Of a stretch of DNA of 17,820 nt, positions 1 to 16,328 are shown one piece after another. Made by a program: the position numbers and the translations under genes. The DNA lies in assembly GCA_030066475.1 (NCBI GenBank), contig JASJBO010000207.1:1-17820 (forward strand). Reading direction: 5' to 3'. The stretch's first letter is position 1; every line of letters begins with the position of its first letter. Below the pieces are notes generated by a model, which saw nothing but the letters and a program-made list of their open reading frames with translations, was not told where the DNA came from and ran no database searches. The stretch comes from Myxococcota bacterium (GTDB lineage Bacteria; Myxococcota_A; UBA9160; PR03).

Positions 1-219
1 CGCAGCGAGCCGCAGGCGAGCGAAGTCCATCAGGCCGTCTTCGCCTGGCAGCGAGGCCCTTGGCGGCACCCCGCAAGCGGAGGCGAAGCCGGAGCGCGCA
101 GCGAGCCGCAGGCGAGCGAAGTCCATCAGGCCGTCTTCGCCTGGCAGCGAGGCCCTTGGCGGCACCCCGCAAGCGGAGGCGAAGCCGGAGCGCGCAGCGA
201 GCCGCAGGCGAGCGAAGTC
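1..219. repeat. Tandem array of a 96-bp repeat, truncated by the left edge
   Basis: Positions 1-96 and 97-192 are identical, and 193-219 repeats the first 27 bases, so the period is exactly 96 bp. Each unit is a core of about 55 bp (69-123 and 165-219, ending GAGCGAAGTC) plus a 41-bp linker beginning CATCAGGCCGTC. The same core, as its reverse complement, occurs three times at 2536-2716, and in this orientation once at 16220-16274. The array ends 7 bp past the stop codon of the cystathionine gamma-synthase gene, which lies on the opposite strand. Ninety-six is a multiple of three, and five of the six reading frames through the unit are open; the exception is a TGA on the minus strand at the GGCCTGATGG word. 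There are no unique spacers between units, so this is not CRISPR. The array probably continues beyond the left edge. Confidence 0.95.
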
Positions 220-226
220 GACCAAA

Positions 227-1411
227 CTAAACCTGGGACAGCGCCTGCTCCAGGTCGGCGATCAGGTCGTCGGTGTCCTCGATGCCGAGCGCCAGCCGCA
301 CCAGCGAGTCGGTGATGCCGAGGGCGTAGCGCTCCTCGCGCGACTGGTCCCAGTAGGACATCGTGGCCGGCAGCTCGATCAGCGACTCGACGCCGCCCAG
401 GCTGGGGCCGATCTGCGGCACGGTGCAGGCGTCGACGAAGCGGCAGGCGCCCTCGAAGTCGGTGTCGACCTCGAAGGTCACCAGGCCGCCGAAGCCGCGC
501 ATGGTGCGCCGGGCCACCTCGTGGTCGGGATGGCTGGCGAGCCCCGGGTACCAGACGCGGCGCACCTTGGGATGCGCCTCGAGCCACTCGGCCACGCGCT
601 GGCCGTTCTGGTTGTGGCGCTCCATGCGCAGCGCCAGCGTCTTGGCGCCGCGCAGCAGGAGCCAGGCGGCATGGGGGTCGAGCACGCCGCCCAGCACGCC
701 CACGGCCTTGCGCACGCGGTCGATCGACTCGCCCGAGCCGATCGCGACCCCCGCCATCAGGTCGTTGTGTCCGCCGACGTACTTGGTGCCGCTGTAGATC
801 ACGATGTCGGCGCCCTCGGCGAGCGGGGTCACGTTGACGGGCGAGGCCAGCGTGGTGTCGATCACCACCTGCGCGCCGCGCGCGTGGCAGACGCGCGCCG
901 TCTCGGCCACGTCGATCACGCGCAGGTAGGGGTTGGTGGGGCTCTCCGTGAAGAACAGCGCGGTGTCGTCGCGCAGGGCCGCCTCGAGCTTCGAGATGTC
1001 GGCGGGCTCGATCACCGTGGTCTCGACCTCGAGCTTGGTCAGGTACTCCCGCGTGAACTGGCGCGTGCGCCGATAGCAGTCGCTGGTCGTGATCAGGTGG
1101 CCGCCGCGCGGCAGCAGGGCGAGGAACAGAGTGGTGGCCGCGCACATGCCGGAGGCGAACAGCACCGCCTCCTCGCCCCGGTCGAGCTCGGCGAGCTTGC
1201 CCTCGACGGCGCGCCAGGTGGGGTTGCCGTAGCGGCCGTACTCGTCGCGCTCGAGCCGGCCCTCCTGGAAGTCGATCACCTCGGCCTGGTCGCGGAACAC
1301 GTAGGTGGAGGTCTGGAAGATCGGGGTGGTGAGGGAATCCCGCTGCGGGTCCCGCTCCCCGGCGTGCACCGCACGCGTGGAATCGCCCGCCGGCTTGCGG
1401 CGCTCGCTCAT
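227..1411 (-). CDS. metB: Cystathionine gamma-synthase family PLP enzyme (plant-like type)
   Basis: This 394-residue protein belongs to the Cys/Met-metabolism PLP-dependent family (fold type I). Cystathionine gamma-synthase joins an activated homoserine ester and cysteine to make cystathionine in the transsulfuration route to methionine, in the cytoplasm. Visible marks are the YGRYGNPT segment (58-65) that reaches the neighbouring subunit's PLP, SGM (87-89) at the phosphate site, the PLP-ring aspartate D185 in VVIDTT, the Schiff-base lysine K210 in SGTKYVGGHND, and SLGGVES near the C terminus. The stretch DCYRRTRQF followed by VIEPAD resembles plant cystathionine gamma-synthases more than E. 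coli MetB. The ATG at 1411 gives a normal family length; its ribosome site is weak. The gene is alone on this strand here and ends beside the 96-bp repeat array. Cystathionine gamma-lyase, O-acylhomoserine sulfhydrylase or methionine gamma-lyase activity cannot be excluded from sequence alone. Confidence 0.85.
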   Translation of the reverse strand: MSERRKPAGDSTRAVHAGERDPQRDSLTTPIFQTSTYVFRDQAEVIDFQEGRLERDEYGRYGNPTWRAVEGKLAELDRGEEAVLFASGMCAATTLFLALLPRGGHLITTSDCYRRTRQFTREYLTKLEVETTVIEPADISKLEAALRDDTALFFTESPTNPYLRVIDVAETARVCHARGAQVVIDTTLASPVNVTPLAEGADIVIYSGTKYVGGHNDLMAGVAIGSGESIDRVRKAVGVLGGVLDPHAAWLLLRGAKTLALRMERHNQNGQRVAEWLEAHPKVRRVWYPGLASHPDHEVARRTMRGFGGLVTFEVDTDFEGACRFVDACTVPQIGPSLGGVESLIELPATMSYWDQSREERYALGITDSLVRLALGIEDTDDLIADLEQALSQV

Positions 1412-1557
1412 GTGCTGCTCGTGTCGAGGGCGCTTAGCAGCTCCGGGTGCGGAACCCGAGGACGGTCCATCGGGGGGCCTGCAAGCGCCTGAAATCGCCC
1501 CGCTCGCGCCGGGTCGGCGGCTGGTGCGCCGAGCCGCAACGCGAGCTTCGCGGAAAG

Positions 1558-1911
1558 TTACGGGCGGCGACGCCCTGCGTCAAACGGCGTCCCATGCTGC
1601 TGTCGCCGGACCCGTACGGGTTCCAGCCGTCGCACCTGGGCCAGCAGACCGAGCAATCCGACCGCGAGCAGCGCCAGCGTCAGGGGCTCCAGGATGGGAC
1701 TCAAGCGGGACTCCTGCTGCGCGAGCGGCTCGCGCACCGGTCTGGGTTGGAGCCCACCGAATCCGTGCGGTCTCGGCGAACCCGGACCGGCTTCCGCGAC
1801 CGGCGGACGGCGACTCCCTTCCCACTCGCATCGATGCGCAAGTGGTGCGCCAGTCGCGGTGCCGCGCTCCGGAGGGCCGATTCCGACAACGCGAACGGTG
1901 ACTTGACTCAC
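1558..1911 (-). other. Possible PEP-CTERM-like remnant or small membrane-anchored ORF
   Basis: A minus-strand frame starting at a GTG (1911) could encode 117 residues. Residues 75-93 read EPLTLALLAVGLLGLLAQV and are followed by arginines. This resembles the PEP-CTERM sorting signal: a Pro-Glu-Pro-like box, a leucine/alanine/glycine-rich helix and a basic end. Differences from a true signal are the LEP instead of PEP box and about 20 further residues after the arginines. The N-terminal part has no signal peptide or recognisable domain, and there is no ribosome site before the GTG. It could be the decayed 3' end of a PEP-CTERM protein gene, a small membrane protein, or a coincidence in GC-rich DNA. 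No exosortase gene is in the window. Confidence 0.25.
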
Positions 1912-1947
1912 CGAACGGGTGCAGCGCGAAGCGCGATTCCGCAGCCA

Positions 1948-1986
1948 CGCGGCAAATGTTTTCCGCGGCCCTATGGAAATGTTTTC
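1948..1986. promoter_or_regulatory. Candidate operator: two AAATGTTTTC direct repeats 23 bp apart
   Basis: AAATGTTTTC occurs at 1954-1963 and again, identically, at 1977-1986. The start-to-start spacing of 23 bp is close to two helical turns, which suits a dimeric regulator on one DNA face. The first copy is also flanked by complementary 5-bp arms, CGCGG (1948-1952) and CCGCG (1963-1967). The site is AT-rich in a very GC-rich region and lies about 150 bp upstream of the FHA gene and about 540 bp upstream of the divergent metB-like gene. The regulator is unknown, and binding is inferred only from the repeat pattern. Confidence 0.35.
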
Positions 1987-2126
1987 TCTCGCCGAGCCGT
2001 CGATCCCGCTGGCCGCATCGCGTGTTGCAGCGCCCCGCTACGCGCGCGCCGCACCCCGGCTGCACCCCTCGCGCTATCAAGCCCGGCCCGCGTCCGCCGC
2101 TAACGAGGGCGCATGCTGGAAGCCCC

Positions 2127-2131
2127 GGAGG
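2127..2131 (+). promoter_or_regulatory. Ribosome binding site (GGAGG) of the FHA gene
   Basis: GGAGG ends 6 bases before the ATG at 2138. This strong Shine-Dalgarno match decides the start of the FHA gene over the longer in-frame extension that opens at 1919, whose extra 73 residues look non-coding. Confidence 0.8.
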
Positions 2132-2137
2132 TGTCCG

Positions 2138-2533
2138 ATGACAGCGACGCGCAAGATCGAGCGTCCCGGCGAGGGACTCGACTTCGACACGTACCTGGCC
2201 GCCAGCCGCCCCGTGCTCGTGGTGATCACCGGCGGTACGGCGGGCAGCGAGCACCTGCTGGATCGGCCCCGCATCGCCCTCGGCCGCGGGCCCGACGTGG
2301 ATCTGGCGCTCGACGAGTCGTCGTTGTCGCGCCGCCACGCCCTGGTGGAGTACGTCGACGGGGGCTTCCGGCTGCGCGACCTCGGCAGCACCAACGGGAC
2401 GCTGGTCAACGGCGCGGCCGTCGAGACCGCGGAGCTGAAGCACGGCGACCGCATCGAGCTGGGCGAGCTGATGCTCCAGCTCGTGATCGAGCCGCGGGAG
2501 TCCGAGCCGAAGGCCTACGTCGTCCCGGAATGA
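2138..2533 (+). CDS. Small FHA-domain protein
   Basis: This 131-residue protein is essentially one forkhead-associated domain, a beta-sandwich that binds phosphothreonine peptides. The core motifs are present in order: LGRG around residues 48-51, SSLSRRH (61-67) with the phosphate-contacting serine and arginine, and DLGSTNGTLVNG (81-92). A 20-residue leader precedes the domain. There is no signal peptide or membrane helix, so it should be cytoplasmic. The start is the ATG at 2138 behind GGAGG. The next gene on the strand is a Ser/Thr kinase, a frequent FHA partner, which suggests the FHA protein reads threonines phosphorylated by that kinase; this is inferred from context. The stop codon TGA coincides with the first bases (TGATGGACTTCGC) of the downstream repeat, so the repeat may have set the present C terminus. 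Confidence 0.88.
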   Translation: MTATRKIERPGEGLDFDTYLAASRPVLVVITGGTAGSEHLLDRPRIALGRGPDVDLALDESSLSRRHALVEYVDGGFRLRDLGSTNGTLVNGAAVETAELKHGDRIELGELMLQLVIEPRESEPKAYVVPE

Positions 2534-2719
2534 TGGACTTCGCTCGCCTGCGGCTCGCTGCGCGCTTCGGCTTCGCCTCCGCTTGCGCCGGCCTTGTCGA
2601 CTTCGCTCGCCTGCGGCTCGCTGCGCGCTTCGGCTTTGCCTCCGCTTGCGCCGGCCTTGTCGACTTCGCTCGCCTGCGGCTCGCTGCGCGCTCCGGCTTC
2701 GCCTCCGCTTGCGGGGGTG
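2531..2719. repeat. Three tandem copies of a 63-bp repeat (same family as 1-219)
   Basis: Copies start at 2536, 2599 and 2662 with GACTTCGCTCGCCTGCGG, giving an exact 63-bp period. Copies 1 and 2 differ at one base (TTCGCC against TTTGCC). Copy 3 has CTCCGG where the others have CTTCGG, and it diverges after its core. The copy-3 core (2662-2716) is identical to the reverse complement of 69-123 in the left array over 55 bp. The linker here is only GGCCTTGTC, compared with 41 bp in the left array, so the core is what is conserved and the linkers vary. The array fills most of the gap between the FHA stop and the kinase start. In both places the sense strand of the upstream gene reads GACTTCGCTCGCC. 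Confidence 0.95.
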
Positions 2720-2750
2720 TCCGCGTAGGAACCGCTTGCCGGCGCACGCC

Positions 2751-2780
2751 CGGCCTGATGGCCCCACGGCTCGCTGGGCG
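2751..2780. repeat. Degenerate fragment of the same repeat family
   Basis: CGGCCTGATGG (2751-2761) matches the linker-to-core junction of the 96-bp unit read on its other strand. After a short mismatched stretch that looks like an internal deletion, ACGGCTCGCTGGGCGG resembles the core word GCGGCTCGCTGCGCG. It looks like a decayed further copy in the space before the kinase gene. Confidence 0.45.
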
Positions 2781-2812
2781 GATCCCGACTCTCACGTCGG
2801 CCTCGTAGCCCC

Positions 2813-3895
<1,083 letters not shown>

Positions 3896-3935
3896 GGCGC
3901 CGGCGCTCGCGACCCCAGGGGGAAGGAAGGCGCTG

Positions 3936-3964
3936 GTAAGGAAACGGTCACCCGCGCGTAAGGG
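3936..3964 (+). promoter_or_regulatory. GTAAGG direct repeat upstream of the methyltransferase gene
   Basis: GTAAGG at 3936-3941 recurs as GTAAGGG at 3958-3964, a 22-bp spacing, in the short gap between the kinase stop and the methyltransferase start. Two-turn spacing in a promoter position suggests an operator or an activator site. No standard -35/-10 pair is obvious, and a hexamer repeat can arise by chance. Confidence 0.2.
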
Positions 3965-4010
3965 TTCGCGGCCGATGCCTCCGTAGCCTGCTCGCCATGG
4001 CTCGCACACG

Positions 4011-4017
4011 GAGGAAC
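4011..4017 (+). promoter_or_regulatory. Ribosome binding site (GGAGGAA) of the methyltransferase gene
   Basis: GGAGGAA ends 6 bases before the ATG at 4024. It selects that start over the in-frame ATG at 3997, which lies upstream of this site and has no comparable signal. Confidence 0.8.
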
Positions 4018-4023
4018 CCGGCC

Positions 4024-4785
4024 ATGTCCCGCATCGCCTGCTTCGCCTACGGCCTGCTCTGCTACGCCGTCTTCTTCGCGACATTCCTCTACTCGATCGG
4101 ATTCGTGGGCAACCTCTGGGTGCCGAAGTCGATCGACTCCGGCACGCCCGGTCCGGTCGGCCTCGCCCTGGCCATCAACCTGGCTCTGCTCGGCGTCTTC
4201 GCGCTGCAGCACAGCGTGATGGCGCGGCCCGCCTTCAAGCGCTGGTGGACGCGCCTCGTGCCCGAGCCGATCGAGCGCGCCACCTACGTGCTGGCGTCGA
4301 GCGCCGCGCTGGCGCTCCTGTACTGGGGCTGGCAGCCGATCGCCGGGGTGGTCTGGCAGGCGGAATCGGTGCTGGCGTGGGGCGCGCTCACGGCGCTCTA
4401 CTTCACCGGCTGGGCGCTGGTGCTGTACTCGACCTGCCTGATCAGCCACTTCGACCTGTTCGGGGTGCGGCAGGTCTGGCTGCACCTGCGCGGCCGGGCC
4501 TACGAGGGCAAGCCGTTCATGACGCCCTCGCTGTACCGCTACATCCGGCACCCGCTCTACGTCGGCTGGTTCACCGTGTTCTGGGCCACGCCCACCATGA
4601 CGATCGGGCACCTGCTGCTGGCGCTGGTCGTCACGGCCTACGTGCTCGTCGCCGTGCGGATCGAGGAGCGCGACCTGCTCCACTACTTCGGCGACGTCTA
4701 CGCCCGCTACCGGCGGCGTACCCCGGCCTTCGTGCCGATTCCCTCGATGATCGCGCCGCCGCCTCCGCGGCGCCGCGTCCCGTAG
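4024..4785 (+). CDS. mddA: MddA/NnrU-type membrane S-methyltransferase
   Basis: This 253-residue integral membrane protein has about five hydrophobic helices (near 7-28, 45-62, 88-103, 118-142 and 181-210). The signature is YRYIRHPLYVGW (171-182) followed by RIEERDL (212-218) and YARYRRRTPAF near the end. This is the SAM-binding C-terminal pattern of the isoprenylcysteine methyltransferase/NnrU superfamily. Length and overall pattern fit MddA, which methylates methanethiol to dimethyl sulfide using SAM. The superfamily also holds NnrU-like proteins and other methyltransferases, so the exact substrate is inferred. The start at 4024 is chosen from the GGAGGAA site. The gene stands alone, about 130 bp after the kinase, and converges on the lipoprotein gene. 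The metB-like sulfur gene about 2.6 kb away fits a sulfur role but is not proof. Confidence 0.75.
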   Translation: MSRIACFAYGLLCYAVFFATFLYSIGFVGNLWVPKSIDSGTPGPVGLALAINLALLGVFALQHSVMARPAFKRWWTRLVPEPIERATYVLASSAALALLYWGWQPIAGVVWQAESVLAWGALTALYFTGWALVLYSTCLISHFDLFGVRQVWLHLRGRAYEGKPFMTPSLYRYIRHPLYVGWFTVFWATPTMTIGHLLLALVVTAYVLVAVRIEERDLLHYFGDVYARYRRRTPAFVPIPSMIAPPPPRRRVP

Positions 4786-4803
4786 GCGAGCGGTCTGCCG
4801 GTC

Positions 4804-4818
4804 GCCCCCTCGGGGGGC
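4804..4818. terminator. Candidate bidirectional terminator hairpin between convergent genes
   Basis: GCCCCC (4804-4809) can pair with GGGGGC (4813-4818) around a TCG triloop. It sits in the 32-bp gap between the convergent methyltransferase and lipoprotein genes and reaches the first base of the lipoprotein stop triplet. The position suits a shared terminator. There is no T-tract on either side, so it is not a canonical intrinsic terminator. Confidence 0.4.
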
Positions 4819-5711
4819 TACTGCTGCCCGTCGTCTACCATGATGGCGCGGCGCTGGGAGTGGTACTCGGCCTCGCTGATATCGCCGTTGCGGCGCAGCT
4901 CCTCCAGGTCGGCCAGCGCCCGCAGCGCCTCGGGCGACAGGCTGGAGGGCGGGATCAGGGGCGCCTCGTCGCCGGCCATCTCGCCCTCGAGCGCCTGCTC
5001 CCCGCTCTCGAGCAGGATGGTGCGCCGCACCACCCGGCCGCCGGGCCGCACCCGGATCGCGCCCAGGTTGCCGAAGGCGGGGTCGCGCCAGATCGCCGCG
5101 ACCGTCTGTGGCCCGAGGGCGACGACGCCCTCGGTGGTGACGGCCCGGTACTCGTTGCGAACATCGTCGGCCCACGGCTCGGGCACCTTGTCGCGCGGAT
5201 TCCTCGAGAGCGGCTCGTCGAGGACGCCCAGGTGGGTGAAGAAGCGGTCGCCCTCGACCCAGATCACCATGCTGGTGAGATAGTCGTTGGTGAAGATGTA
5301 GTGGGTCTTGCGGCGATCCTTCGCCATCACCACGATCTCCTGGCTCGAGTCCGCCGCCTTGAGCGCCTCTGACACCCCATCGCCGATCGCGTAGATGACG
5401 CTGGTGGGGATTGCGGCCCGCCGGCCCTCGTCGTCCTTGCGCCCGCGCACGTCGATGCGCGCCAGGATGTTGACGATGCGCACGGGGGCGATCGTGACCG
5501 GGTGTTCGAAGCCGCGGTCGACAGGCTCGCCGCCCCGGGTCTGGTGGCGCAGGAAGACGCGCACGTGGTTGTCGTCGTAGACCGGCGTCCGCACCGCGCG
5601 GGCGCAGCCGGTGGCGAGCGCCACCAGCAGGAGCAGTGCCAGGCCGGCCGTCCGAAGCGCCGGGCGGCGCTCACCGCGCTGGGGTCGTGAGCTGCGGGAC
5701 ACGGGCTCCAC
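4818..5711 (-). CDS. Lipoprotein with C-terminal SHOCT domain, function unknown
   Basis: This 297-residue protein has an N-terminal basic stretch, a hydrophobic segment (about 21-34) and a lipobox ending ALATGC, making C36 the predicted acylated cysteine. It should be an exported lipoprotein. The central part (about 40-250) has beta-rich sequence that I do not recognise. Residues about 259-291 (LSPEALRALADLEELRRNG, then ISEAEYHSQRRAI) match the short SHOCT helical hairpin found at the C termini of many unrelated proteins and thought to mediate oligomerisation. The GTG at 5711 is used; another in-frame GTG three codons in has a better-placed GAGG and could be the true start. It lies 103 bp downstream of gpsA on the same strand and may be cotranscribed. 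The stop codon is in the hairpin shared with the convergent gene. Confidence 0.8.
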   Translation of the reverse strand: MEPVSRSSRPQRGERRPALRTAGLALLLLVALATGCARAVRTPVYDDNHVRVFLRHQTRGGEPVDRGFEHPVTIAPVRIVNILARIDVRGRKDDEGRRAAIPTSVIYAIGDGVSEALKAADSSQEIVVMAKDRRKTHYIFTNDYLTSMVIWVEGDRFFTHLGVLDEPLSRNPRDKVPEPWADDVRNEYRAVTTEGVVALGPQTVAAIWRDPAFGNLGAIRVRPGGRVVRRTILLESGEQALEGEMAGDEAPLIPPSSLSPEALRALADLEELRRNGDISEAEYHSQRRAIMVDDGQQ

Positions 5712-5814
5712 CTCACCGGGAAGCGCCCGGAGCTGCCGGGCGCCCCGAGAGTACCGGCGCCGGCGCGATCCGCCGCCCTGGACGCGTCCGGAACGATCTT
5801 GCGAACGAGTTCGC

Positions 5815-6822
5815 TTAGTCCTTTTCGCTGCGAAGCTGGCGGGTTAGCAGCCGGGTCACCCCCTCGCGCGGGTCCACCTCGCCGTTCAGCAGGGTGCGGA
5901 CGCCCTCGGTGATCGGGAGCTCGAGGCCCACCCGGTCGGCCAGGACGCAGGCCGCGTAGGTGGTGCGCACGCCCTCGGCCACCTCGCCCAGCTCGTCCAG
6001 GATCTCCTCGAGCTTGCGGCCCTGGCCGAGGGCCAGGCCCACGCGCCGGTTGCGCGAGAGATCGCCGGTGCAGGTAAGGACCAGGTCGCCCATTCCCGAG
6101 AGCCCCAGAAAGGTGAGCGGATTCGCGCCCATGCGGACGCCGAGGCGCGAGATCTCGGCGAGCCCGCGGGTCATCGTGGCAGCCCGCGCGTTGTGCCCGA
6201 GGCCGAGCCCGTCGCTGATGCCGGTGGCGATCGCGATCACGTTCTTGAGCGCCCCGCCGATCTCGACGCCGACCACGTCGGGATCGGAGTACGCCCGGAA
6301 CCAGGGGCACGACAGGTGCGCCTGGGCCGCGATCGCGTACGTCTCCCGTTTGCAGGCGATCGTCACCACGGTGGGCTGGTGGCGCGCGATCTCGCGGGCG
6401 AAGGAGGGGCCCGACAGGAACACGAGGCGCGGGTGGTGCGCCGCAGGCAGCACCTCCTCGAGCACCCCATTCATCGTCTTGCCGGTGTGCTCCTCGAGGC
6501 CCTTCACGGTCGAGACGATCAGCGCGCCGTCGGGCAGCAGCGGGCCGGCGCGCGTCATGACCTCGCGCACGGCCTGGCTCGGCACCGCCACGATCACCAT
6601 CTCGCGGTCGGCAAGCGCCTCCGCCAGGTCCGCAGTCGGCCGGATCCTGGGCGGGATGTCGACGTCCTTCAGGTAGCGCGGGTTGCGGCGGTCGCGTTCG
6701 ATCGCCGCGACGACGGCGCGGTCGCGCGCCCACAGCGTGACGTCGTGGTCGCGGTCCGCGCACAGGATCGCAAGGCAGGTACCAAAGCTACCGGCGCCGA
6801 TCACGCCGACCGGGATGCCCAC
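5815..6822 (-). CDS. gpsA: Glycerol-3-phosphate dehydrogenase [NAD(P)+]
   Basis: This 335-residue cytoplasmic enzyme reduces dihydroxyacetone phosphate to sn-glycerol 3-phosphate, the backbone for phospholipid synthesis. Its length is that of bacterial GpsA. The N-terminal Rossmann fold shows GVIGAGSFGT (6-15). Further signatures are VPSQAVREV (80-88), STVKGLE with active-site lysine K107, LSGPSFAREIA (136-146), EIGGALKNV with catalytic lysine K193, and LSGMGDLVLTCTGDLSRNR, which forms the substrate pocket. No key residue is missing. The start is a GTG at 6822. The gene diverges from the complex I operon, with 132 bp between the two starts, and the lipoprotein gene follows on the same strand. 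Confidence 0.95.
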   Translation of the reverse strand: MGIPVGVIGAGSFGTCLAILCADRDHDVTLWARDRAVVAAIERDRRNPRYLKDVDIPPRIRPTADLAEALADREMVIVAVPSQAVREVMTRAGPLLPDGALIVSTVKGLEEHTGKTMNGVLEEVLPAAHHPRLVFLSGPSFAREIARHQPTVVTIACKRETYAIAAQAHLSCPWFRAYSDPDVVGVEIGGALKNVIAIATGISDGLGLGHNARAATMTRGLAEISRLGVRMGANPLTFLGLSGMGDLVLTCTGDLSRNRRVGLALGQGRKLEEILDELGEVAEGVRTTYAACVLADRVGLELPITEGVRTLLNGEVDPREGVTRLLTRQLRSEKD

Positions 6823-6840
6823 GGCGCGCAGTCTATCGCG

Positions 6841-6869
6841 TTGACTGGATCGGGGGCCACGGCTACCGT
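6841..6869 (+). promoter_or_regulatory. Candidate sigma-70-type promoter of the nuo operon
   Basis: TTGACT (6841-6846), one mismatch from the -35 consensus, is followed after exactly 17 bp by TACCGT (6864-6869), a weak -10 match sharing T, A and the final T. It lies in the 132-bp gap between divergent gpsA and nuoA and would give a leader of about 80 bases before the nuoA GTG. It is the only -35-like hexamer I noticed in this gap. The lineage's promoter consensus is unknown. Confidence 0.4.
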
Positions 6870-6942
6870 TCGGGCCGTTTCCGTAGCGATTCCGCGCGCT
6901 TCAGCGGCTGTTCGCACTTCCGCCAAGCCCTCGCCCCCCGAC

Positions 6943-6947
6943 GGAGG
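6943..6947 (+). promoter_or_regulatory. Ribosome binding site (GGAGG) of nuoA
   Basis: GGAGG lies 7 bases before the GTG at 6955. It fixes the nuoA start at this GTG, although the same frame stays open for another 760 bases upstream, antisense to gpsA. Confidence 0.85.
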
Positions 6948-6954
6948 ATTCCCC

Positions 6955-7308
6955 GTGCTCGCCGAGTACAGCGGCGTCGTGGTGATCCTCGCAATCGGGC
7001 TGATCATCGCCGGCGGGCTGCTCGGCATCCACCTGCTGGTGGGGCCGCGGCGCGTCTTCTCCGAGAAGTCCGAGGCGTTCGAGTGTGGCGAGCGCCCGAT
7101 CGTCTCGCCGCGCCAACGCTTCTCGGTCAAGTTCTACATCGTCGCGATGCTGTTCATCCTGTTCGACGTCGAGGCGGTCTTCCTCTACCCGTGGGGCGCG
7201 CTGTTCCTCGAGCTCGGCTGGTTCGGCTTCTTCGAGATGCTGACCTTCGTGGCCGTCCTGTCCGTGGGCCTCGCCTACGTCTGGACCAAGGGCGCGCTCG
7301 AGTGGTGA
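6955..7308 (+). CDS. nuoA: NADH-quinone oxidoreductase subunit A
   Basis: This 117-residue membrane subunit of respiratory complex I sits beside the quinone chamber. It has three predicted helices (about 8-28, 59-80 and 88-110). The loop between helices 1 and 2 holds FECGERP (42-48), the family's conserved cysteine loop. The second helix region carries RFSVKFYIVAMLFILFDVE (55-73), including the invariant acidic pair flanking a phenylalanine-valine pattern, and YPWG follows. The start is the GTG at 6955 behind GGAGG. It is the first gene of the operon, and its stop codon overlaps the nuoE start (GTGA). In most bacteria nuoB follows at this position; here it is absent. Confidence 0.95.
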   Translation: MLAEYSGVVVILAIGLIIAGGLLGIHLLVGPRRVFSEKSEAFECGERPIVSPRQRFSVKFYIVAMLFILFDVEAVFLYPWGALFLELGWFGFFEMLTFVAVLSVGLAYVWTKGALEW

Positions 7309-7769
7309 TCCCCGAGCCGATCCGCGCCCGCATCGATGCGGAGATCGCCAAGGTGCCGCAGCGGCGGGGCGCCCTGCTGCCGGCGCTGCATCTGGTCGAG
7401 CGCGAGCTGGGCTGCGTGGCGCCCGAGGCCGCGCGCGAGCTGGCCGAGATCTTCGGGATCCGCCCCGTCGAGGTGATGGAGGTGGTCTCCTTCTACAACA
7501 TGTTCCACGAGCGGCCGCTGGGCCGGCACCGCGTGTACGTCTGCACCAACCTGCCCTGCTCGCTGCGGGGCGCGCGCGCCCTGCTGCGCGAGCTCGAGCG
7601 CCACCTGGACGTCGAGGCGGGCCGGACCACGGCAGACGGGCGCATCCACCTGGACCACGAGGAGTGTCTCGGGGCCTGCGCGTGGGCGCCGATGATGCGC
7701 GTGGACGACACCTATCACGAGGATCTCGACGCCGCGGCCGCCAGGCGGATCGTCGACGAGCTGGACTGA
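7305..7769 (+). CDS. nuoE: NADH-quinone oxidoreductase subunit E (24-kDa type)
   Basis: This 154-residue thioredoxin-fold ferredoxin subunit of the NADH module binds the off-path [2Fe-2S] cluster N1a. The four ligands are visible as C80-x4-C85 (VCTNLPCS) and C121-x3-C125 (ECLGACAWAP). The helical N-terminal part (LLPALHLVERELG, IRPVEVMEVVSFYNMF) is typical of the family, and the length is normal. The GTG at 7305 forms a GTGA overlap with the nuoA stop; another GTG one codon earlier is possible. nuoF follows after 3 bases. Its place directly after nuoA, where nuoB-C-D usually lie, is the odd feature of this operon. Confidence 0.95.
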   Translation: MIPEPIRARIDAEIAKVPQRRGALLPALHLVERELGCVAPEAARELAEIFGIRPVEVMEVVSFYNMFHERPLGRHRVYVCTNLPCSLRGARALLRELERHLDVEAGRTTADGRIHLDHEECLGACAWAPMMRVDDTYHEDLDAAAARRIVDELD

Positions 7770-7772
7770 CGC

Positions 7773-9068: not shown

Positions 9069-9070
9069 CG

Positions 9071-10609
9071 ATGCCGCGGATCACGGTCGACGGGGTCGAG
9101 CTCGAGGTCGCCGAGGGACGCACCATCCTGCAGGCGCTCGACGACCTGGGGCTCCTCATGAACGGCGTCGACGTGCCCCACTACTGCTGGCACCCGAAGC
9201 TCTCGGTCGACGGCTCCTGCCGCCTGTGCCAGGTCGAGGTGGAGGGCATTCCGAAGCTCCAGATCGCCTGCAACACGCCGGCGGCGGACGGCATGGTGAT
9301 CCACACCACCAGCGAGCGCGTGCGCCGCGCGCGCGAGGGCGTGATGGAGCTGCTGCTGGTCAACCACCCGCTCGACTGCCCGATCTGCGACCAGGCCGGC
9401 GAGTGCAAGCTCCAGGACTACGCCTTCGAGTACGGCGTGGCGCACGGCCGCAGCGTCGAGCCGCGGCGCGCCGGGCGCAAGCGCGTCGAGCTGGGACCCA
9501 CGATCGTGTTCGACGAGGAGCGCTGCATCCTGTGCCGGCGCTGCGTGCGCTTCTGCCGCGAGGTGCCGGGCACCGGAGAGCTGGCGGTGCGCGAGCGCGG
9601 CGACCGCTCGACGATCGCGACCTTCCCCGGCCAGGAGCTCGACAACGACTACTCGATGAACGTGGCCGACGTGTGCCCGGTCGGCGCGCTCACCACCCGG
9701 GACTTCCGCTTCCGGATCCGCGTGTGGTTCCTCGAGGACGTGCCCGGCGTCTGCACCGGCTGCGCGCGCGGCTGCAACGTGCACCTGGGGGTCGCCAACA
9801 ACCGGGTCTACCGCTACGTGCCGCGCCGCAACGACCGCGTGAACGGCACCTGGATCTGCGACGCGGGCCGGCTGTCCTACAAGCGGATCGGCGCCGAGGA
9901 CCGGATCACCGCGGCCTGGGTGCGCGGCGAGGACGGGGTGCGCCAGGAGCTGGCGGTCGACGCGGCGCTCGGCGTCGCGGCCGAGCGCCTGCGGCGGGTG
10001 ATCGAGACGCACGGCGCCGGCGCGGTGGGTGGGCTCGCCTCGCCGCACGCCACCAACGAGGACCTGCTGGTGCTGCGCCGCTTGCTGGCGGCGCTCGGGT
10101 CGACGCAGAGCGGCTTCGCGCTGGCGCGCGGCGCCGCGGACGACCTGCTGCTGCACGCCGAGAAGGCCGCCAACGCGGAGGGCGCGCGCCGCCTGGGCTT
10201 CGGGGACGCCGCCCCGCTGCTCGAGCGCCTGCGCGGCGGCGCCGTCGAGGCGCTGCTGGTGCTCGGGCACGACCTGCTCGATCCGGCCTACCGGGCGGGT
10301 CTCGACGCGCTCCGCGAGATCGACACCGTCGTCCTGCTCGACACCCACCACTCCGAGATCGAGACCGTCGCGCACGTGGTGATCCCGACGCGCCACGCCG
10401 CCGAGAAGCACGGGACCCTCACCAACGCCGACGGCCTGGTGCAGCGCGTCGTTCCGGCCGTGACGCCCGCCTTCGACGCGCGCGACGAGGGCGCGGTGCT
10501 CTGGCAGCTCGGGGCGGCGCTCGGCCTGGAGGGCTTCGCGGAGCCCTGGGACGCGCAGGGGCTCGCCCGCGAGCTCGACGCGGCGGCGCCGGCCGCGGAA
10601 GGCGCCTGA
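9071..10609 (+). CDS. nuoG: NADH-quinone oxidoreductase subunit G, short form
   Basis: This 512-residue subunit carries electrons through the peripheral arm. Ligand sets are visible in order: [2Fe-2S] N1b C39, C50, C53, C67; N5 as H99, C103, C106, C112 (HPLDCPICDQAGEC); N4 as C152, C155, C158 and C202 (CPVGAL); and an N7-type set C228-x2-C231-x3-C235 with C263 (WICDAGR). Beyond about 270 comes a molybdopterin-oxidoreductase-like region with LLVLGHDLLDPAY and VVIPTRHAAEKHGTLTNADG (436-455). It is far shorter than in E. coli NuoG (about 900 residues) or Thermus Nqo3 (about 780), so part of the large domain is missing. Both ends are clean: the ATG lies 2 bases after nuoF, and nuoH starts 2 bases after the stop. 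It therefore looks like a natural short form rather than a frameshift. Confidence 0.92.
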   Translation: MPRITVDGVELEVAEGRTILQALDDLGLLMNGVDVPHYCWHPKLSVDGSCRLCQVEVEGIPKLQIACNTPAADGMVIHTTSERVRRAREGVMELLLVNHPLDCPICDQAGECKLQDYAFEYGVAHGRSVEPRRAGRKRVELGPTIVFDEERCILCRRCVRFCREVPGTGELAVRERGDRSTIATFPGQELDNDYSMNVADVCPVGALTTRDFRFRIRVWFLEDVPGVCTGCARGCNVHLGVANNRVYRYVPRRNDRVNGTWICDAGRLSYKRIGAEDRITAAWVRGEDGVRQELAVDAALGVAAERLRRVIETHGAGAVGGLASPHATNEDLLVLRRLLAALGSTQSGFALARGAADDLLLHAEKAANAEGARRLGFGDAAPLLERLRGGAVEALLVLGHDLLDPAYRAGLDALREIDTVVLLDTHHSEIETVAHVVIPTRHAAEKHGTLTNADGLVQRVVPAVTPAFDARDEGAVLWQLGAALGLEGFAEPWDAQGLARELDAAAPAAEGA

Positions 10610-10611
10610 CC

Positions 10612-11769
10612 GTGCTGCTCGCCGTGATCCTGAAGACGCTCTTCATCGTGGTGGTCGCCATCGCCGCCTTCGCCCCGCTGATCACCTGGGTGGAGCGCAA
10701 GCAGAGCGCGCTCATGCAGGACCGGATCGGCGCCAACCGGGCCGACGTCGGCGGCATCCGGCTGCTGGGCCTGCTCCACCCGATCGCCGACGTGCTGAAG
10801 CTGATCGCGAAGGAGGACCACGTTCCCGCCGGCGCCAACCGCGCCCTGCACCTGGTGGCGCCCGTGATCGCGGCGGTCCCCGCGATCGTCTCGTTCGCCG
10901 TGATCCCCTACGGCGGGATCTACCGCTTCGGCGACACGACCGTGAACCTGGTGGTGGCCGACATCGATTGGGGCCTGCTGTTCATCTTCGCGGTCGGCTC
11001 GATCGCCGTGTACGGCACGGTGATCGCGGGCTGGGCCAGCAACAACAACTGGTCGCTGCTCGGCAGCCTGCGCGCGTCGGCCCAGATGATCTCCTACGAG
11101 GTCACCATGGGGCTCTCGGTGGTCGGGGTCTTCATGGTGTTCCAGACGCTGCGCCTCACCGACATGGGCGTGGCCCAGGACACCACCTTCCGGGTGCTGG
11201 GCTTCCTCGAGCACTTCGGCTGGGTCGAGTCGCTGTCCGCGCCGCTCTCGTGGGTCACGCTGCCGCGCTGGGGGATCTTCGTCCAGCCGCTCGCCTTCGT
11301 GATGTTCCTCACCTGCGTGATGGCGGAGAACAAGCGGCCGCCCTTCGACCTGCCCGAGGGCGAGAGCGAGATCATCGCCGGCTACCACATCGAGTACTCG
11401 GGCATGCGCTTCGGCCTGTTCTTCATGGCCGAGTTCATCGAGGTGGTGGTGATCGCCGGTCTGATGACGGCCATCTTCCTGGGCGGCTGGTCGATTCCCT
11501 GGCTGCCGCAGGAGACCCTGATCGGCGCGCTGGCGCCGGTCTTCGGCGAGGGCTTCGCCACCGGCGTGTGCCTGGTGGCCCACGTGCTCACGTTCCTGTC
11601 GAAGGTCGCGGTGATGATCTGGCTCCAGATGCAGATCCGCTGGACCCTGCCGCGGCCGCGCTACGACCAGGTGATGGACCTGTGCTGGAAGGTGATGCTG
11701 CCGCTCTCGCTGGCCAACGTGATGCTCACGGGCGTGGTGCTCCTGATGGCGCGGGGAGGGCCGGCGTGA
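10612..11769 (+). CDS. nuoH: NADH-quinone oxidoreductase subunit H
   Basis: This 385-residue membrane subunit (ND1 type) forms most of the quinone-binding chamber at the junction of the two arms. About eight hydrophobic helices are visible. Signatures are [18 protein letters not shown] (26-43), [19 protein letters not shown] and ISYEV in the central part, and [15 protein letters not shown] (from E239) followed by [18 protein letters not shown]. Together these form the acidic cytoplasmic loop that lines the quinone tunnel. The start is a GTG 2 bases after nuoG. Its stop overlaps the nuoJ start (GTGA). nuoI, which normally follows nuoH, is missing. Confidence 0.96.
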
Positions 11770-12272
11770 GCGCGGCGGAGTGGTTCTTCTACGGCTTCGG
11801 CGCCCTCGCGGTCGGCTCGGCGCTCGCGATGGTGGCGAACGTGCGCAACGCGGTGGCGGCCGCGCTGAGCCTGATCGTCACGATGATCTCGCTGGCCGGA
11901 ATCTACGTGCTGCTCGAGGCGCACCTGATCGCCGCGCTCCAGGTGATGATCTACGCCGGCGCGATCGTCGTGCTGTTCCTGTTCGTCGTCATGCTGCTCA
12001 ACCTGCGGCAGGACCGCTTCCCGCGCTCGCGGCGCGGCGCGGTGCGGGCGCTCGCGCTCGGACTGGGCGTGGCGCTCGCCATCGGCCTGGTCTCGCTGCT
12101 GCCGAGCGCGCTGCCCGAGTCGCGTCCGCTGCCCGAGGGCTTCGGCGGCTACCGCGTCGTGGGGCTCGCGCTCTACCGCGACTTCGTGCTGCCCTTCGAG
12201 GCCAGCTCGTTCCTGCTGCTCGCCGCCATCGTGGGAGCGGTGGTCCTCGCGAAGCGGAGGCTCGACCCGTGA
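11766..12272 (+). CDS. nuoJ: NADH-quinone oxidoreductase subunit J
   Basis: This 168-residue membrane-arm subunit (ND6 type) has five hydrophobic segments. The family core is the third helix, [20 protein letters not shown] (51-70), containing the pi-bulge segment MIYAGAI that rotates during the catalytic cycle. It is followed by FVVMLLNL and a basic cytoplasmic stretch. Length is normal. The GTG at 11766 overlaps the nuoH stop (GTGA), and its own stop overlaps the nuoK start in the same way, indicating translational coupling across H-J-K. Confidence 0.94.
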
Positions 12273-12571
12273 TCCCGCTGGCGCACGTGATCGCGCTCTC
12301 GGCGATCCTGTTCTCGATCGGCGCGATCGGGGCGCTCACGCGGCGCAACCTGATCGTGGTGCTGATGTCGATCGAGCTGATGCTGAACGCGGCGAACCTG
12401 GCCTTCGTGGGCTTCGCGCGGGCCTGGGCGGCGGTCGACGGCCACGTCTTCGTGCTGATGGTGATCGTGGTGGCGGCCGCCGAGGTGGCGGTGGGCCTCG
12501 GCATCGTGATCGCCCTGTTCCGCAACCGCGAGTCGGTCGACGTCGAAGAGGCGAGCCTGCTCAAATGGTAG
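12269..12571 (+). CDS. nuoK: NADH-quinone oxidoreductase subunit K
   Basis: This 100-residue subunit (ND4L type) has three helices and takes part in the proton path of the membrane arm. The two key membrane glutamates are present at the same positions as in E. coli NuoK: E36 in [13 protein letters not shown] and E72 in [17 protein letters not shown]. The protein ends in LLKW. Its GTG start overlaps the nuoJ stop, and its stop lies inside the first codons of nuoL, a 7-base overlap. Confidence 0.97.
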
Positions 12572-14622
12572 AGACGGGCGCCGACACCGTGACGCGCTTC
12601 GAGTGGCTGCGCTGGATCCCGCTGCTCCCGCTGCTGGGTGCCGCGCTCCATGGCGTCATGCTCGGCCTGCTGCGGCGCGAGGCGCCGCGCAGCGCCGTGG
12701 CGATCGTCTCGTGCGGGGCGCCGATCCTGGCGTTCGTGCTCACGGGCGCGGCCTTCGTGCAGCTGGTCTCGCTGCCCGGCAACGGCGCGATCCTGGTCGA
12801 TCCCGTCTACGCCTGGCTCGGCGCCGGGCGCCTCTCGATCGACCTGGCCTTCCACTTCGACGCACTCGCCGCGGTGCTGGCGCTGGTGGTGACCGGCGTG
12901 GGCTCGCTGATCCACGTCTACTCGGTCGGCTACATGAGCCACGACGAGCGCGACGACGGCGGCTTCCAGCGCTTCTTCTGCTATCTGAACTTGTTCACTT
13001 GCGCGATGCTGCTGCTGGTGCTCGGGGACAACCTGCTGGTGATGTTCCTGGGCTGGGAGGGCGTGGGGCTGTGCTCCTACCTCCTGATCGGCTTCTGGTA
13101 CGGCGACCGCTGGAACGCCTACTGCGGCACCAAGGCGTTCGTGTTGAACCGCGTCGGCGACTTCGGGTTCCTGGTGGGCATGCTGCTGATCGTCTCGGCG
13201 CTGGCCGACGTCGGCGCGCCGTCGCTGGCATTCCGCGACGTCGCCGCCGCGATCGGCGAGCTGTCGGCGCGCACCGTGGCGGTGCCCGGCTGGCTGCCCG
13301 GTCCCGAGACGTGGCGGCTCACCACGCTGATCGGCCTGTGCCTGTTCCTCGGCGCCTGCGGCAAGTCGGCGCAGATCCCGCTCCAGACCTGGCTGCCCGA
13401 CGCGATGGCGGGCCCCACCCCGGTGTCGGCGCTGATCCACGCCGCCACCATGGTCACCGCGGGCGTCTACATGGTGTGCCGGATGGGCTTCCTGTACGCA
13501 GAGGCGCCTGGTGCCTCCGCGGTCATCGCCTGGACGGGGGCGCTGACCGCGCTGTGGGCCGCCACGGTGGCGGTGGCGCAGACCGACATCAAGAAGGTGC
13601 TGGCGTACTCCACCGTGAGCCAGCTCGGCTACATGTTCCTGGCGGCCGGCAGCGGCGCCTACGCCGCCGCGATGTTCCACGTCTTCACCCACGCCTTCTT
13701 CAAGGCGCTGCTGTTCCTGGGCGCGGGCGCGGTGATCCTGGCGCTGCACCACGAGCAGGACACCGACCGCATGGGCGGCCTGTGGCGGCGCCTGCCGCGC
13801 ACGCACGCGGTGTTCGCGATCGGGGTGCTCGCGATCGCGGGCTTCCCCGGGCTCTCCGGCTTCTTCTCGAAGGACGAGATCCTGCTGGCGACCTGGCTGT
13901 CGCACGGGCCTGGCCACGCCGCCCTGTACGCGATCGGGCTCGTCACGGCCGGGATCACCGCCTTCTACATGGTGCGACTCCACTGCCGCGTCTTCTACGG
14001 ACCCGCGCGCGTGCCCGAGGCCACCCGGGAGGAAGTGACCGATCCCGGTCCGGTGATCCTCCAACCGCTCTACGTGCTCGCCGCCCTGTCCGTGTTCGGC
14101 GGGCTCGTCGGGCTGCCGCAGGTCTACGGCGACTGGTTCGAGATCCCCGACTCGAACAGCTTCGCCAACTTCCTGAACCGGGTGGTGCCGCACGAGCCGC
14201 ACGCGATCGAGGCGAGCACCGAGCTGTGGCTCGGCGCGCTCACCACCGCCGTGGCGCTGGGCGGCGGCGGGCTCGCCGCGTGGCTGTACCTGCGACGGCC
14301 CGAGCTGCCGGCGCGCATCCGCGGCGCGCTGGGCGCGGGCTTCCGCCTGGTGCGCGACCGCTACTACGTCGACGAGGTCTACGACGCGCTGATCGTGCGG
14401 CCCCTGGTGCTCGTCTCGGACCGCGTGCTGTTCCGCGTGGTGGACGCCGGCCTGATCGACGGCCTCGCCGTGAACGGCACGGCCGCGACCGTGCGCGGGC
14501 TCGCCGCGCGCGGGCTCAAGCACCTGCACTCGGGCCTGACGCAGGGCTACCTGCTCGGGGTCGTGGTCGGCGGCGCCGGGGTCGTGCTCTGGCTGCTCCG
14601 CGGGATCGGCGGGTCGCCGTGA
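12565..14622 (+). CDS. nuoL: NADH-quinone oxidoreductase subunit L
   Basis: This 685-residue antiporter-like subunit lies at the far end of the membrane arm and pumps protons. Conserved points are [12 protein letters not shown] (117-128), the essential glutamate E165 in [19 protein letters not shown], lysine K267 in [18 protein letters not shown], the HAATMVTAG helix, and [18 protein letters not shown]. The C-terminal portion has [13 protein letters not shown] and a long helix region with a final membrane anchor, as expected of the lateral helix. The start ATG lies within the last codons of nuoK, and the stop overlaps the GTG of nuoM (GTGA). Confidence 0.96.
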
Positions 14623-16328
14623 GCCTGCTCGAGAGCCACGCGCTCGCGGTCCTGACCTTCCTGCCGCTCGTCACCGGGCTGGTGCTGCTGGCCTTCCCGC
14701 GGCTGCCCGAGTCGGCCTGGCGTGGCATCGCGCTGGCCAGCACCGGGCTCACCTTCGCGCTCGCGGTGCAGCTCTTCCTGGGCTTCGACCCGGCGCGCGG
14801 CGGCTTCCAGTTCGTCGAGTACGCGCCGTGGCTGCCGGCCTACGGGGTCAACTGGTTCGTCGGCGTCGACGGCACCAGCCTGCTGCTGGTGCTGCTCACG
14901 ACGTTCCTCACTCCGCTCGTGCTGCTCGGCTCCTGGACCGACGTGCGCCACTCGGTGCGCAGCTTCGTGTTCATGAACCTGTTCCTCGAGACCGGCATGC
15001 TCGGCGCCTTCGTCTCGCTCAACCTGTTCCAGTTCTACGTGTTCTGGGAGGTCATGCTGATCCCGATGTACTTCATCATCGGGATCTGGGGCGGGCCCCG
15101 GCGCGTCTACGCCGCGCTCAAGTTCTTCCTGTTCACGATGCTCGGGTCGCTGCTGATGCTGGTGGCGATGCTCGTGCTCTACCAGCTCCACGGCGAGCAG
15201 TTCGCCGTCCGCAGCTTCGACCTGGTGCGCGCGCCCGCGAGCGCGGTGCCGGGCCTGCTCGAGACCCTCGTGCCGGTGGGCGGCGACCCCTGGTGGAAGA
15301 GCCAGCTCTGGCTGTTCGGCGGCTTCGCGCTGGCCTTCGGCATCAAGGTGCCGCTGGTGCCCTTCCACACCTGGCTGCCCGACGCGCACGTCGAGGCGCC
15401 CACCGCCGGCTCGGTGATCCTGGCCGGTGTGCTCCTCAAGATGGGGACCTACGGCTTCGTGCGCTTCGCGCTGCCGCTGTTCCCGGTCGCCGCCGAGACC
15501 TTCGCGCCGGTGATGTTCGGGCTGGCGCTGGTCGGCATCCTGTACGGCGCGCTGGTGGCGATGGTGCAGACCGACGTCAAGAAGCTGGTGGCGTACTCGT
15601 CGGTCGCGCACCTGGGCTTCGTCGTGCTCGGCCTGTTCGCGCTCAACCCGGAGGGGCTCGAGGGCTCGATCCTGCAGATGGTGAACCACGGGCTGTCGAC
15701 GGGCGCCCTGTTCCTGCTGGTGGGCATGCTCTACGAGCGGCGTCACACCCGCGAGATCGCCGCCTTCGGCGGCCTGGCCAAGCCGATGCCGGTGTTCGCG
15801 GCCGGCTTCGGCATCGTGGCGATGTCGAGCCTGGGGCTGCCGGCGCTGAACGGCTTCGTGGGCGAGTTCCTGATCCTGGTGGGCGCCTTCCTGGTGAGCC
15901 CGTGGGTCGCGACCGCCGCCACCCTCGGTGTGATCCTGGCCGCCTGCTACCTGCTGTGGATGGTGCGCCGCGTGCTGTTCGGCCCCTGCGAGGATCCCGA
16001 GAATCTCTCGCTGATCGACCTCGGCCTGCGCGAGAAGCTGGTCCTGATCGCCTTCCTGGTCCCGATCGTGTGGATCGGTCTCTACCCCAACCCCTTCCTG
16101 CGCCGCCTCGACGCCTCGGTCTCCGACCTGCTGCACACGATGGAGACGCGGAAGGCCGCCGTCCTCGAACAGCAAGCAGACCCCGTAGCGAGCAACCACT
16201 CGCACAGCGCCCGAAGTTCCCCCGCAAGCGCCGGCGAAGCCGGCGCGCGCAGCGAGCCGCAGGCGAGCGAAGTCCATCAGGCCGTCTCCGCGTCGGCAAC
16301 CATCGCGGCCCGGAGCCCGGAGCGATGA
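14619..16328 (+). CDS. nuoM: NADH-quinone oxidoreductase subunit M with repeat-derived C-terminal tail
   Basis: This 569-residue antiporter-like proton-pumping subunit of complex I is normal up to about residue 508. Conserved points are the essential glutamate E144 in FWEVMLIPMYFI, lysine K243 in FGIKVPLVPFHTWLPDAH, the APTAGSVILAGVLLKMGTYG helix, and TDVKKLVAYSSVAHLGF. NuoM proteins normally end about where LLHTM (504-508) stands. Here about 60 further polar residues follow. Residues 535-556, including GEAGARSEPQASEVHQA, are encoded by a copy of the interspersed repeat found at 1-219. No membrane helix is predicted in the tail. The start GTG overlaps the nuoL stop. The stop TGA overlaps the nuoN ATG (ATGA), so coupling to nuoN has survived the lengthening. 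Confidence 0.95.
   Translation: MSLLESHALAVLTFLPLVTGLVLLAFPRLPESAWRGIALASTGLTFALAVQLFLGFDPARGGFQFVEYAPWLPAYGVNWFVGVDGTSLLLVLLTTFLTPLVLLGSWTDVRHSVRSFVFMNLFLETGMLGAFVSLNLFQFYVFWEVMLIPMYFIIGIWGGPRRVYAALKFFLFTMLGSLLMLVAMLVLYQLHGEQFAVRSFDLVRAPASAVPGLLETLVPVGGDPWWKSQLWLFGGFALAFGIKVPLVPFHTWLPDAHVEAPTAGSVILAGVLLKMGTYGFVRFALPLFPVAAETFAPVMFGLALVGILYGALVAMVQTDVKKLVAYSSVAHLGFVVLGLFALNPEGLEGSILQMVNHGLSTGALFLLVGMLYERRHTREIAAFGGLAKPMPVFAAGFGIVAMSSLGLPALNGFVGEFLILVGAFLVSPWVATAATLGVILAACYLLWMVRRVLFGPCEDPENLSLIDLGLREKLVLIAFLVPIVWIGLYPNPFLRRLDASVSDLLHTMETRKAAVLEQQADPVASNHSHSARSSPASAGEAGARSEPQASEVHQAVSASATIAARSPER
16220..16287. repeat. Single copy of the interspersed repeat inside the 3' end of nuoM
   Basis: These 68 bp align without gaps to 69-136 of the left array and differ at three bases (CC for GA, and C for A). 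Two of the changes create CGCCGGC-GAA-GCCGGCG, a perfect 7-bp stem with a GAA triloop (around 16229-16245) that the other copies lack. Unlike the copies at 1-219 and 2531-2719, this one reads in the opposite orientation relative to its host gene and is translated. Confidence 0.95.

Follow-up and report, generated by a model that had tools for sequence, protein, structure and literature searches.

Repetitive extragenic palindromic (REP) sequences of the GTAG and CGTC classes are known mostly from gamma- and alphaproteobacteria, occur in eight phyla overall and include some from delta-group species; they have a tagged foot and often stand in inverted pairs, and the survey by Di Nocera, De Gregorio and Rocco also includes a CGTC class without known transposase (PMC3733652). 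REPINs are two inverted REPs that fold into one long hairpin (PMC3116915), and Rickettsia palindromic elements are about 150 bp long and lie in open reading frames (ORFs) in nearly half of the cases (PMC10969869). Here, we provide comparative evidence that a repeat at three loci of a 17,820-nucleotide stretch from a Myxococcota bacterium (assembly GCA_030066475.1, contig JASJBO010000207.1; this whole stretch is called the window below) is a REP-kind variant outside the described REP families. We read it, with a probability of roughly 0.7, as a REP-like, non-autonomous mobile repeat whose fold is conserved more than its sequence. The element is built of two or three hairpins with compensatory stem evolution, is dispersed in one phylum, is present or absent at the same site in sister genomes, prefers gene 3' ends and has in-frame copies inside proteins.

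The window was scanned on both strands for exact copies of the 25-nt sequence CGCAGCGAGCCGCAGGCGAGCGAAG, termed the core. Seven were found, as compared to a mean of 0.01 in dinucleotide shuffles (none of 200 shuffles reached seven), and on the left of the core the repeat continues for another 24 nt, over GCAA and one hairpin. The unit consists of two head-to-tail hairpins on one strand, with stem letters that vary by copy and pairing that is kept: 5'-GC-AA-(stem 1, loop, stem 1')-GC-GCA-GC-GA-(stem 2, GNA loop, stem 2')-GA-GC-GAAG-3'. In aligned copies, GCAA leads into a complementary variable stem of 2-11 bp, followed by GCGCAGCGA, the hairpin GCC-GNA-GGC and GAGCGAAG. The feet are thus GCAA for hairpin 1, GCA-GC-GA for hairpin 2 and GAAG at the 3' end. 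RNA folding of six strands from three copies gave two modules of the same design (GC-2 nt-stem-triloop-stem-2 nt-GC) linked by an A; with DNA folding parameters the two strands were less clearly separated than with RNA parameters.

A loose anchor expression matched real and reversed sequence alike (3071 vs 3026 matches) and was replaced by structure-aware scans, which returned 246 elements vs a single match in the reversed-sequence control. Selection of the 246 required at least partial pairing; when this requirement was lifted, most cells still paired in the resulting 262 sequences (up to six substitutions). GCAA stands 11-59 nt upstream in 207 of the 246 elements vs 31 of 207 control windows. 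Over the first three pairs of stem 1, 2.47 of 3 are matched vs 1.87 with shuffled partners (maximum 1.99 in 200 shuffles), and a good first hairpin is absent from some copies. Within hairpin 2, pair C9-G15 is CG in 227 and GC in 14 elements, pair C5-G19 is CG in 196, T-G in 35, T-A in eight and C-A in one, and the two G.A pairs are retained in 243 and 244, respectively; even the copy at locus L195 (genomes and loci carry our own G and L numbers), with its long second stem, still has both. The loops are GCA (152), GAA (71) and GTA (15). A covariance-model alignment of 128 distinct rows has 97.7% of its cells paired and a covariation score of 0.197; the alignment is fitted to the structure, and the pair counts of the seed set A1, picked for a complementary stem 1, are not independent. 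The covariation score compares to 0.045 in shuffles (none of 500 as high) and at most 0.018 with partners slid.

Most copies in the sister genomes G009 and G010, which are 95.5% identical at the nuoM locus, are followed by a third hairpin. Here, 87 of 118 distinct elements run on into GGxCT, and among 83 tails that fit GGxCTCGGCCGyC the positions x and y are G-C in 54, C-G in 28 and mismatched in one; 12 further elements have another self-complementary tail. Upstream of this long form, AGCCC and GGCCCGCAAG blocks are each found in 81 of 114 cases, and in the one orthologous pair that was aligned the upstream blocks are conserved and the loops have diverged. With its AGCCC and GGCCC blocks and variable loops, the long form (L231-L309) may represent a more extended structured unit of RNA or DNA.

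Among 84,980 species, each represented by one genome, the exact core occurs in 92 stretches from 18 assemblies. Eighty-five stretches are labelled Deltaproteobacteria, Myxococcota, Myxococcales or Proteobacteria, five only as bacterium, and one as Planctomycetaceae (L075, 3.1 kb, where the copy lies at the contig edge). An Oscillospiraceae-labelled contig (L087, WQXP01000071.1, 6.4 kb, GC 0.51) has several elements, one of them in frame in a PD-(D/E)XK nuclease. Both contigs may be misbinned; alternatively, L087 may come from a host outside the phylum. Whole-assembly scans with up to three mismatches, run on 17 of the 18, gave between 1 and 146 copies per assembly and at most one match in the reversed control. 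In the order of genome G001, the covariance model matched in 50 of 79 genomes, with at least 20 matches in 17; about 79 candidates were scored per genome, and high counts are lower bounds. Among 377 genomes sampled from the phylum, 51 had a match at up to two mismatches, 23 had at least ten and G001 had the maximum of 150, as compared to eight matches in total in the reversed control. Copy number is patchy within one phylum, and the counts from metagenome-assembled genomes (MAGs) may be underestimates. One scan of viral contigs gave no core match. Rfam returned no match to the window at gathering score, and only tRNA (E up to 0.5) for seven element loci; at L058, an Rfam tRNA gene (3808-3880) lies near a long-form element (3689-3730).

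Elements favour gene 3' ends and avoid divergent spacers. Genes were called by a script of our own after masking (157 loci, 1.55 Mb, 202 clusters). Without masking, 31 of 114 clusters had been put in genes, in part an effect of the many open frames through the repeat. After exclusion of 48 clusters (18 at contig edges, 30 lacking a neighbour on one side), the 154 placed clusters comprise 89 in co-directional, 45 in convergent and 11 in divergent spacers and nine within coding sequence, as compared to 81, 23 and 41 expected for the three spacer types from intergenic bases; the loci were mostly chosen for carrying the element, and this background is local, not genome-wide. In the co-directional spacers, 70 of the 89 clusters lie closer to the 3' end of the upstream gene.

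Sister genomes differ by presence and absence of the element. Forty stretches each from G009 and G010 (50 and 51 clusters) were compared, and both flanks were found on one contig of the other genome for 18 G009 and 19 G010 rows, with two G010 sites listed twice. Three rows without an element were not taken as absences: L249:10358, where G010 has the element, and L269:8099 and 8385, which appear to be identical to the contig-end sites L233:311 and L234:329. The comparable sites are mostly shared, and five differ on alignment. Two are specific to G009 (L249:7737 and, with two copies, L249:1166) and two to G010 (L260:8240 and L260:13350, the spacers of both aligning poorly); the fifth is taken up below. 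At the cleanest site, L249:7737, between genes that we recognised by eye as presumable sucC and sucD, G010 has a plain TGATG overlap. As for the window loci, 30 loci were fetched for nuoM and all contain that gene; a copy at the nuoM 3' end is found in one of the 29 that cover it (G006, in the position and frame of the window), and one at the 3' end of the pyridoxal phosphate (PLP)-dependent enzyme gene in one of 30 (G011, L195). The latter lies in the orientation opposite to that in the window, which indicates independent events.

Gene ends are duplicated around the element, clearly at one site and probably at a second. At L007 (G006), between genes that we take by eye to be atpG and atpD, the duplication is unmistakable, with 68-69 nt of gene end including the stop repeated (score 50). 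At L249:7737, the 3' end of the first gene is repeated behind the element over 20 aligned nt (about 30 nt by eye); its score of 17.8, on which alone we judge this duplication probable, compares with 362 shuffled flank pairs of which two reach 16 and none 18. Among the 181 clusters tested, three others score at least 16; one of these is the tail of an element, and the remaining two are a partial array and an array of two copies. The 32 arrays listed have periods of 42 to 144 bp that differ by site and often include flank. In 19 of them the first period is divisible by three (p 0.002), a count in which some arrays may be one event. Four MAG contigs (L031, L064, L065, L086) stop inside an element or array, as if the assembly breaks there.

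All nine ORFs with an in-frame element belong to a Pfam family: a molybdopterin oxidoreductase, an ATP-grasp/succinyl-CoA ligase type enzyme, two CoA-transferase III proteins, MoeA, a penicillin-binding protein, the coproporphyrinogen III oxidase HemF, T2SSE and the nuclease of L087. In HemF of G010, the insert sits between ANIRFF and WWFGGGFD, where two solved homologues have a short loop; it is specific to G010 among 26 readable loci (30 fetched, 43 genomes matched), and HemF of G020, which lacks it, is 85% identical.

The element shares most habits of GTAG/CGTC REPs: short, high-copy hairpins at gene 3' ends in co-directional and convergent spacers, ends that adjoin or supply stop codons, clusters reiterated with their flanks, some copies in frame in genes, and subfamilies with compensatory stems (PMC3733652). 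Unlike these REPs, its hairpins have no GTAG (GYAG/GYRG) or CGTC tag at the foot and stand head to tail, an arrangement that is described as absent or under-represented among REP dimers (PMC3733652); it further differs in its tandem G.A pairs in mid-helix, its GNA triloops and the lack of any element-flanked REP-associated tyrosine transposase (RAYT) in our data. GCAG before hairpin 2 fits GYAG by its letters, with three of the four bases paired in the predicted fold. The comparison with REPs was made by description, and we keep the element apart from their described families because it lacks the tag and its modules are direct, not inverted. Direct modules that fold separately also distinguish it from REPINs, with which it has in common conserved blocks, a variable interior paired by compensatory changes, flank-bearing tandem clusters and a non-autonomous nature (PMC3116915). 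In-frame insertion that adds a peptide to unrelated conserved genes makes Rickettsia palindromic elements the closest system in that respect; compared with their description (PMC10969869), the present element differs in that only nine of 154 placed clusters are in ORFs.

The original prediction had separated the core from REP and BIME sequences, a view that is not supported for hairpins with compensatory changes and REP habits. The core that it described as no clean palindrome does have structure, in the form of two consecutive hairpins. The unit itself encodes no transposase, as predicted; a cognate one elsewhere was not identified. The linkers repeat along with the unit, so that the predicted lack of CRISPR-type spacers stands and a CRISPR array was rejected. 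The proposed check for target-site duplications had a divided outcome, negative for short ones at six sites and positive for long flank duplications, with one clear and one probable case among 181 clusters. A miniature inverted-repeat element of a DDE transposon was likewise dismissed, as its ends, GCAA and GAAG, do not form an inverted repeat and no short target-site duplication was seen by eye at the six aligned sites, as were attC-like sites, for which no GTTRRRY-type box was noticed, without a formal test. Pneumococcal BOX elements resemble the element by description as modular, structured, intergenic strings of units in variable number, and differ in host and modules. We found no description of the family in the literature by sequence, peptide or topic, sequences inside figures being unsearchable and most subscription papers lying outside the collection searched.

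As a mobile repeat, the element would move in single-stranded, folded form and be recognised by a trans-acting protein. It would persist where it does least harm: past a stop codon, in a co-directional or convergent spacer, or as an in-frame hydrophilic loop of the RSEPQASE type. Arrays would then grow in place as the element and its flank are duplicated in tandem, so that each site has its own period. Our tentative first candidate for the trans-acting protein is an HUH-type (RAYT-like) nuclease. A match to Y1_Tnp (PF01797) occurs in 12 of 18 element-rich vs two of 16 element-free genomes (p 0.002); reverse transcriptase (PF00078) shows no association (5/16 rich vs 3/16 free). Four tested proteins resemble RAYTs, scoring 55-72 bits with NCBIfam REP_Tyr_transpos (cut-off 80); in G009, a RAYT-like protein is encoded at L125:1435-2271. 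A profile built from four proteins of this kind, three of them from rich genomes of the order, and scored on up to 30 candidates per genome gave a full-length match in eight of 16 rich vs 11 of 63 other genomes of the order (p 0.018).

Several observations weigh against this reading or its enzyme. No cognate transposase was identified, and no RAYT gene flanked by element copies was seen among 38 RAYT-like or Y1_Tnp loci. The rich genomes are interrelated (G009 and G010 are sisters), so that the 12 of 18 are not independent, and without the three seed genomes the association of the RAYT-like profile drops to 5/13 vs 11/63 (p 0.13). Six of the 18 rich genomes lack a Y1_Tnp match, including the single-contig chromosome G007, G001 with its 150 copies and G012, and G001, G007, G012 and G026 are without any match to the RAYT-like profile; the hosts are MAGs, which makes the absence of a gene weak evidence. 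Genomes G072, G038 and G069 have 11-30 partial RAYT-like matches with at most four elements each, and may carry another repeat family. Elements are found at one of 38 RAYT-like or Y1_Tnp loci, compared to one of 30 for nuoM and for hemF and none of 30 for the PLP-enzyme loci in the same scan, which misses L195. The sole RAYT-locus element, in L350, is of the hairpin-2 type and about 0.9 kb from the gene; the covariance model gave one match of 45.9 bits and four of 16-19 bits on 30 RAYT-like loci, and at most 13.7 bits on eight further loci. The nuclease remains a tentative choice because the RAYT association is weak, rich genomes lack matches and RAYT-like loci are not rich in elements. Beyond the enzyme, no short target-site duplication was seen by eye at the six aligned sites, and at L233:3015, the fifth differing site, a remnant persists in G010, which is a deletion and not an empty site.

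A departure from the REP framework is rather unlikely but deserves mention. The element would then belong to a separate class of mobile hairpin-string repeats, in which two, three or more GC-RA-stem-GNA-stem'-NN-GC modules run head to tail, selected jointly for a single-strand fold and an open hydrophilic frame. Such a repeat could insert at operon junctions and in enzyme loops, could copy as much as about 60 bp of the gene end at its landing site, and would be moved by an enzyme other than the classical REP-flanked RAYT. A functional RNA element of mRNA 3' ends, acting in stability, attenuation or as termination hairpins and selected in transcripts rather than selfish, would explain the 3'-end siting, the avoidance of divergent spacers and the acceptance of wobble T.G but not C.A at pair C5-G19 (35 vs 1; nine vs one among distinct 25-mers). 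The predicted RNA fold of the copy at 16224 is also more stable on the element strand (-27.5 kcal/mol) than on the complement (-24.7 kcal/mol). Yet G.T is the milder mismatch in DNA as well, sense and antisense orientation are similarly frequent in co-directional spacers (52 vs 37, p 0.14, not significant), both window arrays are antisense to the preceding gene, copies also lie in mid-coding region and rich and empty genomes coexist within one order, all of which makes an mRNA function unlikely.

Spread could also have occurred without transposition, if hairpin-prone DNA duplicated by slippage or template switching, its stems were perfected by quasi-palindrome correction and copies spread by gene conversion. 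Site-specific array periods of 42-144 bp, often with flank, the flank duplications at L007 and probably L249 and the complementary stems that vary among copies would all fit; what stays unexplained are the identical linkers (GCAA, GCGCAGCGA, GAGCGAAG) at scattered sites in many genomes and alleles with and without the element, such as HemF of G010 compared to the other 25 of 26 readable loci, and we regard this origin as quite improbable. That the element spreads because it encodes a hydrophilic peptide that is useful or tolerated, the case made for Rickettsia palindromic elements, appears very improbable to us, since 145 of 154 placed clusters are intergenic, stem changes follow pairing and not codons, and the GTA form of the GNA loop, present in 15 of 246 copies, interrupts the RSEPQASE frame with a stop (TAG). 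This is despite the nine in-frame clusters being all sense, seven of them in the RSEPQASE frame, and the 19 of 32 array periods divisible by three, from arrays that are not all independent. The REP-like mobile repeat that we favour would broaden the REP class by a relative from uncultured bacteria that has several direct hairpins and reaches 150 copies per genome. It also offers natural experiments in sister genomes with and without copies, in stems that vary with pairing kept and in HemF with and without the inserted peptide; such comparisons can reveal whether the mobilising enzyme reads the fold or the letters, and how proteins tolerate inserts.

All three window loci are gene 3' ends (Table 1). 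The left array ends at 219, close to the stop of the PLP-enzyme gene at 227 on the minus strand, and the middle array starts at 2536, behind the end of the FHA-domain ORF at 2533, which is followed by a Ser/Thr kinase; each array runs antisense to the gene before it, and the NuoM copy is sense and in frame. This copy has an 8-bp stem 1, GCGCCGGC-GAA-GCCGGCGC, and is followed by the same 15 nt, TCCATCAGGCCGTCT, with which the linker of the 96-bp array starts. The original prediction of one repeat family at these loci, in tandem periods of 96 bp and 63 bp, is borne out by the seven cores, and the identity it noted over 55 bp between distant copies in fact covers 58 nt in opposite orientation, 165-222 being the reverse complement of 2659-2716. 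Five of six frames are open through the 96-bp unit, as it had stated, and all six through the 63-bp unit. Its further expectations of many dispersed copies, of presence and absence in relatives and of landing in or beside genes agree with the 92 exact-core stretches and as many as 150 copies in one genome when two mismatches are allowed, with the sites that differ between G009 and G010, and with 3'-end placement and nine in-frame clusters of 154.

Table 1. Element copies and neighbouring genes in the window, with the exact 25-nt cores from the window scan.
Feature	Position	Strand	Exact core	Evidence
Truncated copy at window edge, hairpin 2 core only	1..25	+	1-25	core scan, covariance model
Complete copy (GCAA-hairpin 1-GCA-hairpin 2-GAAG), left array, antisense to gene 227-1411	73..121	+	97-121	45.6 bits
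Complete copy, final one of 96-bp array	169..217	+	193-217	core scan, covariance model
Tandem array, 96-bp period, 2.3 mutually identical units	1..219	+		
Complete copy, first behind FHA-domain ORF	2538..2586	-	2538-2562	46.4 bits
Complete copy, middle of 63-bp array	2601..2649	-	2601-2625	core scan, covariance model
Complete copy, third of 63-bp array; complement shares 58 nt with 165-222	2664..2712	-	2664-2688	
Single complete copy, in frame near C terminus of NuoM-like ORF (..PASAGEAGARSEPQASEVHQA..)	16224..16272	+	16248-16272	52.4 bits
Cys/Met metabolism PLP-dependent enzyme gene (PF01053)	227..1411	-		Pfam
FHA-domain ORF (PF00498)	1919..2533	+		Pfam
NuoM-like ORF (PF00361, PF01059), 3' end contains element	14619..16328	+		Pfam
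NuoN-like ORF, second PF00361 ORF	starts 16325			Pfam

By its proteins the window fits the order of G001, with values of up to 76% for the PLP enzyme (80.6% at the DNA level) and up to 77-78% for NuoM.

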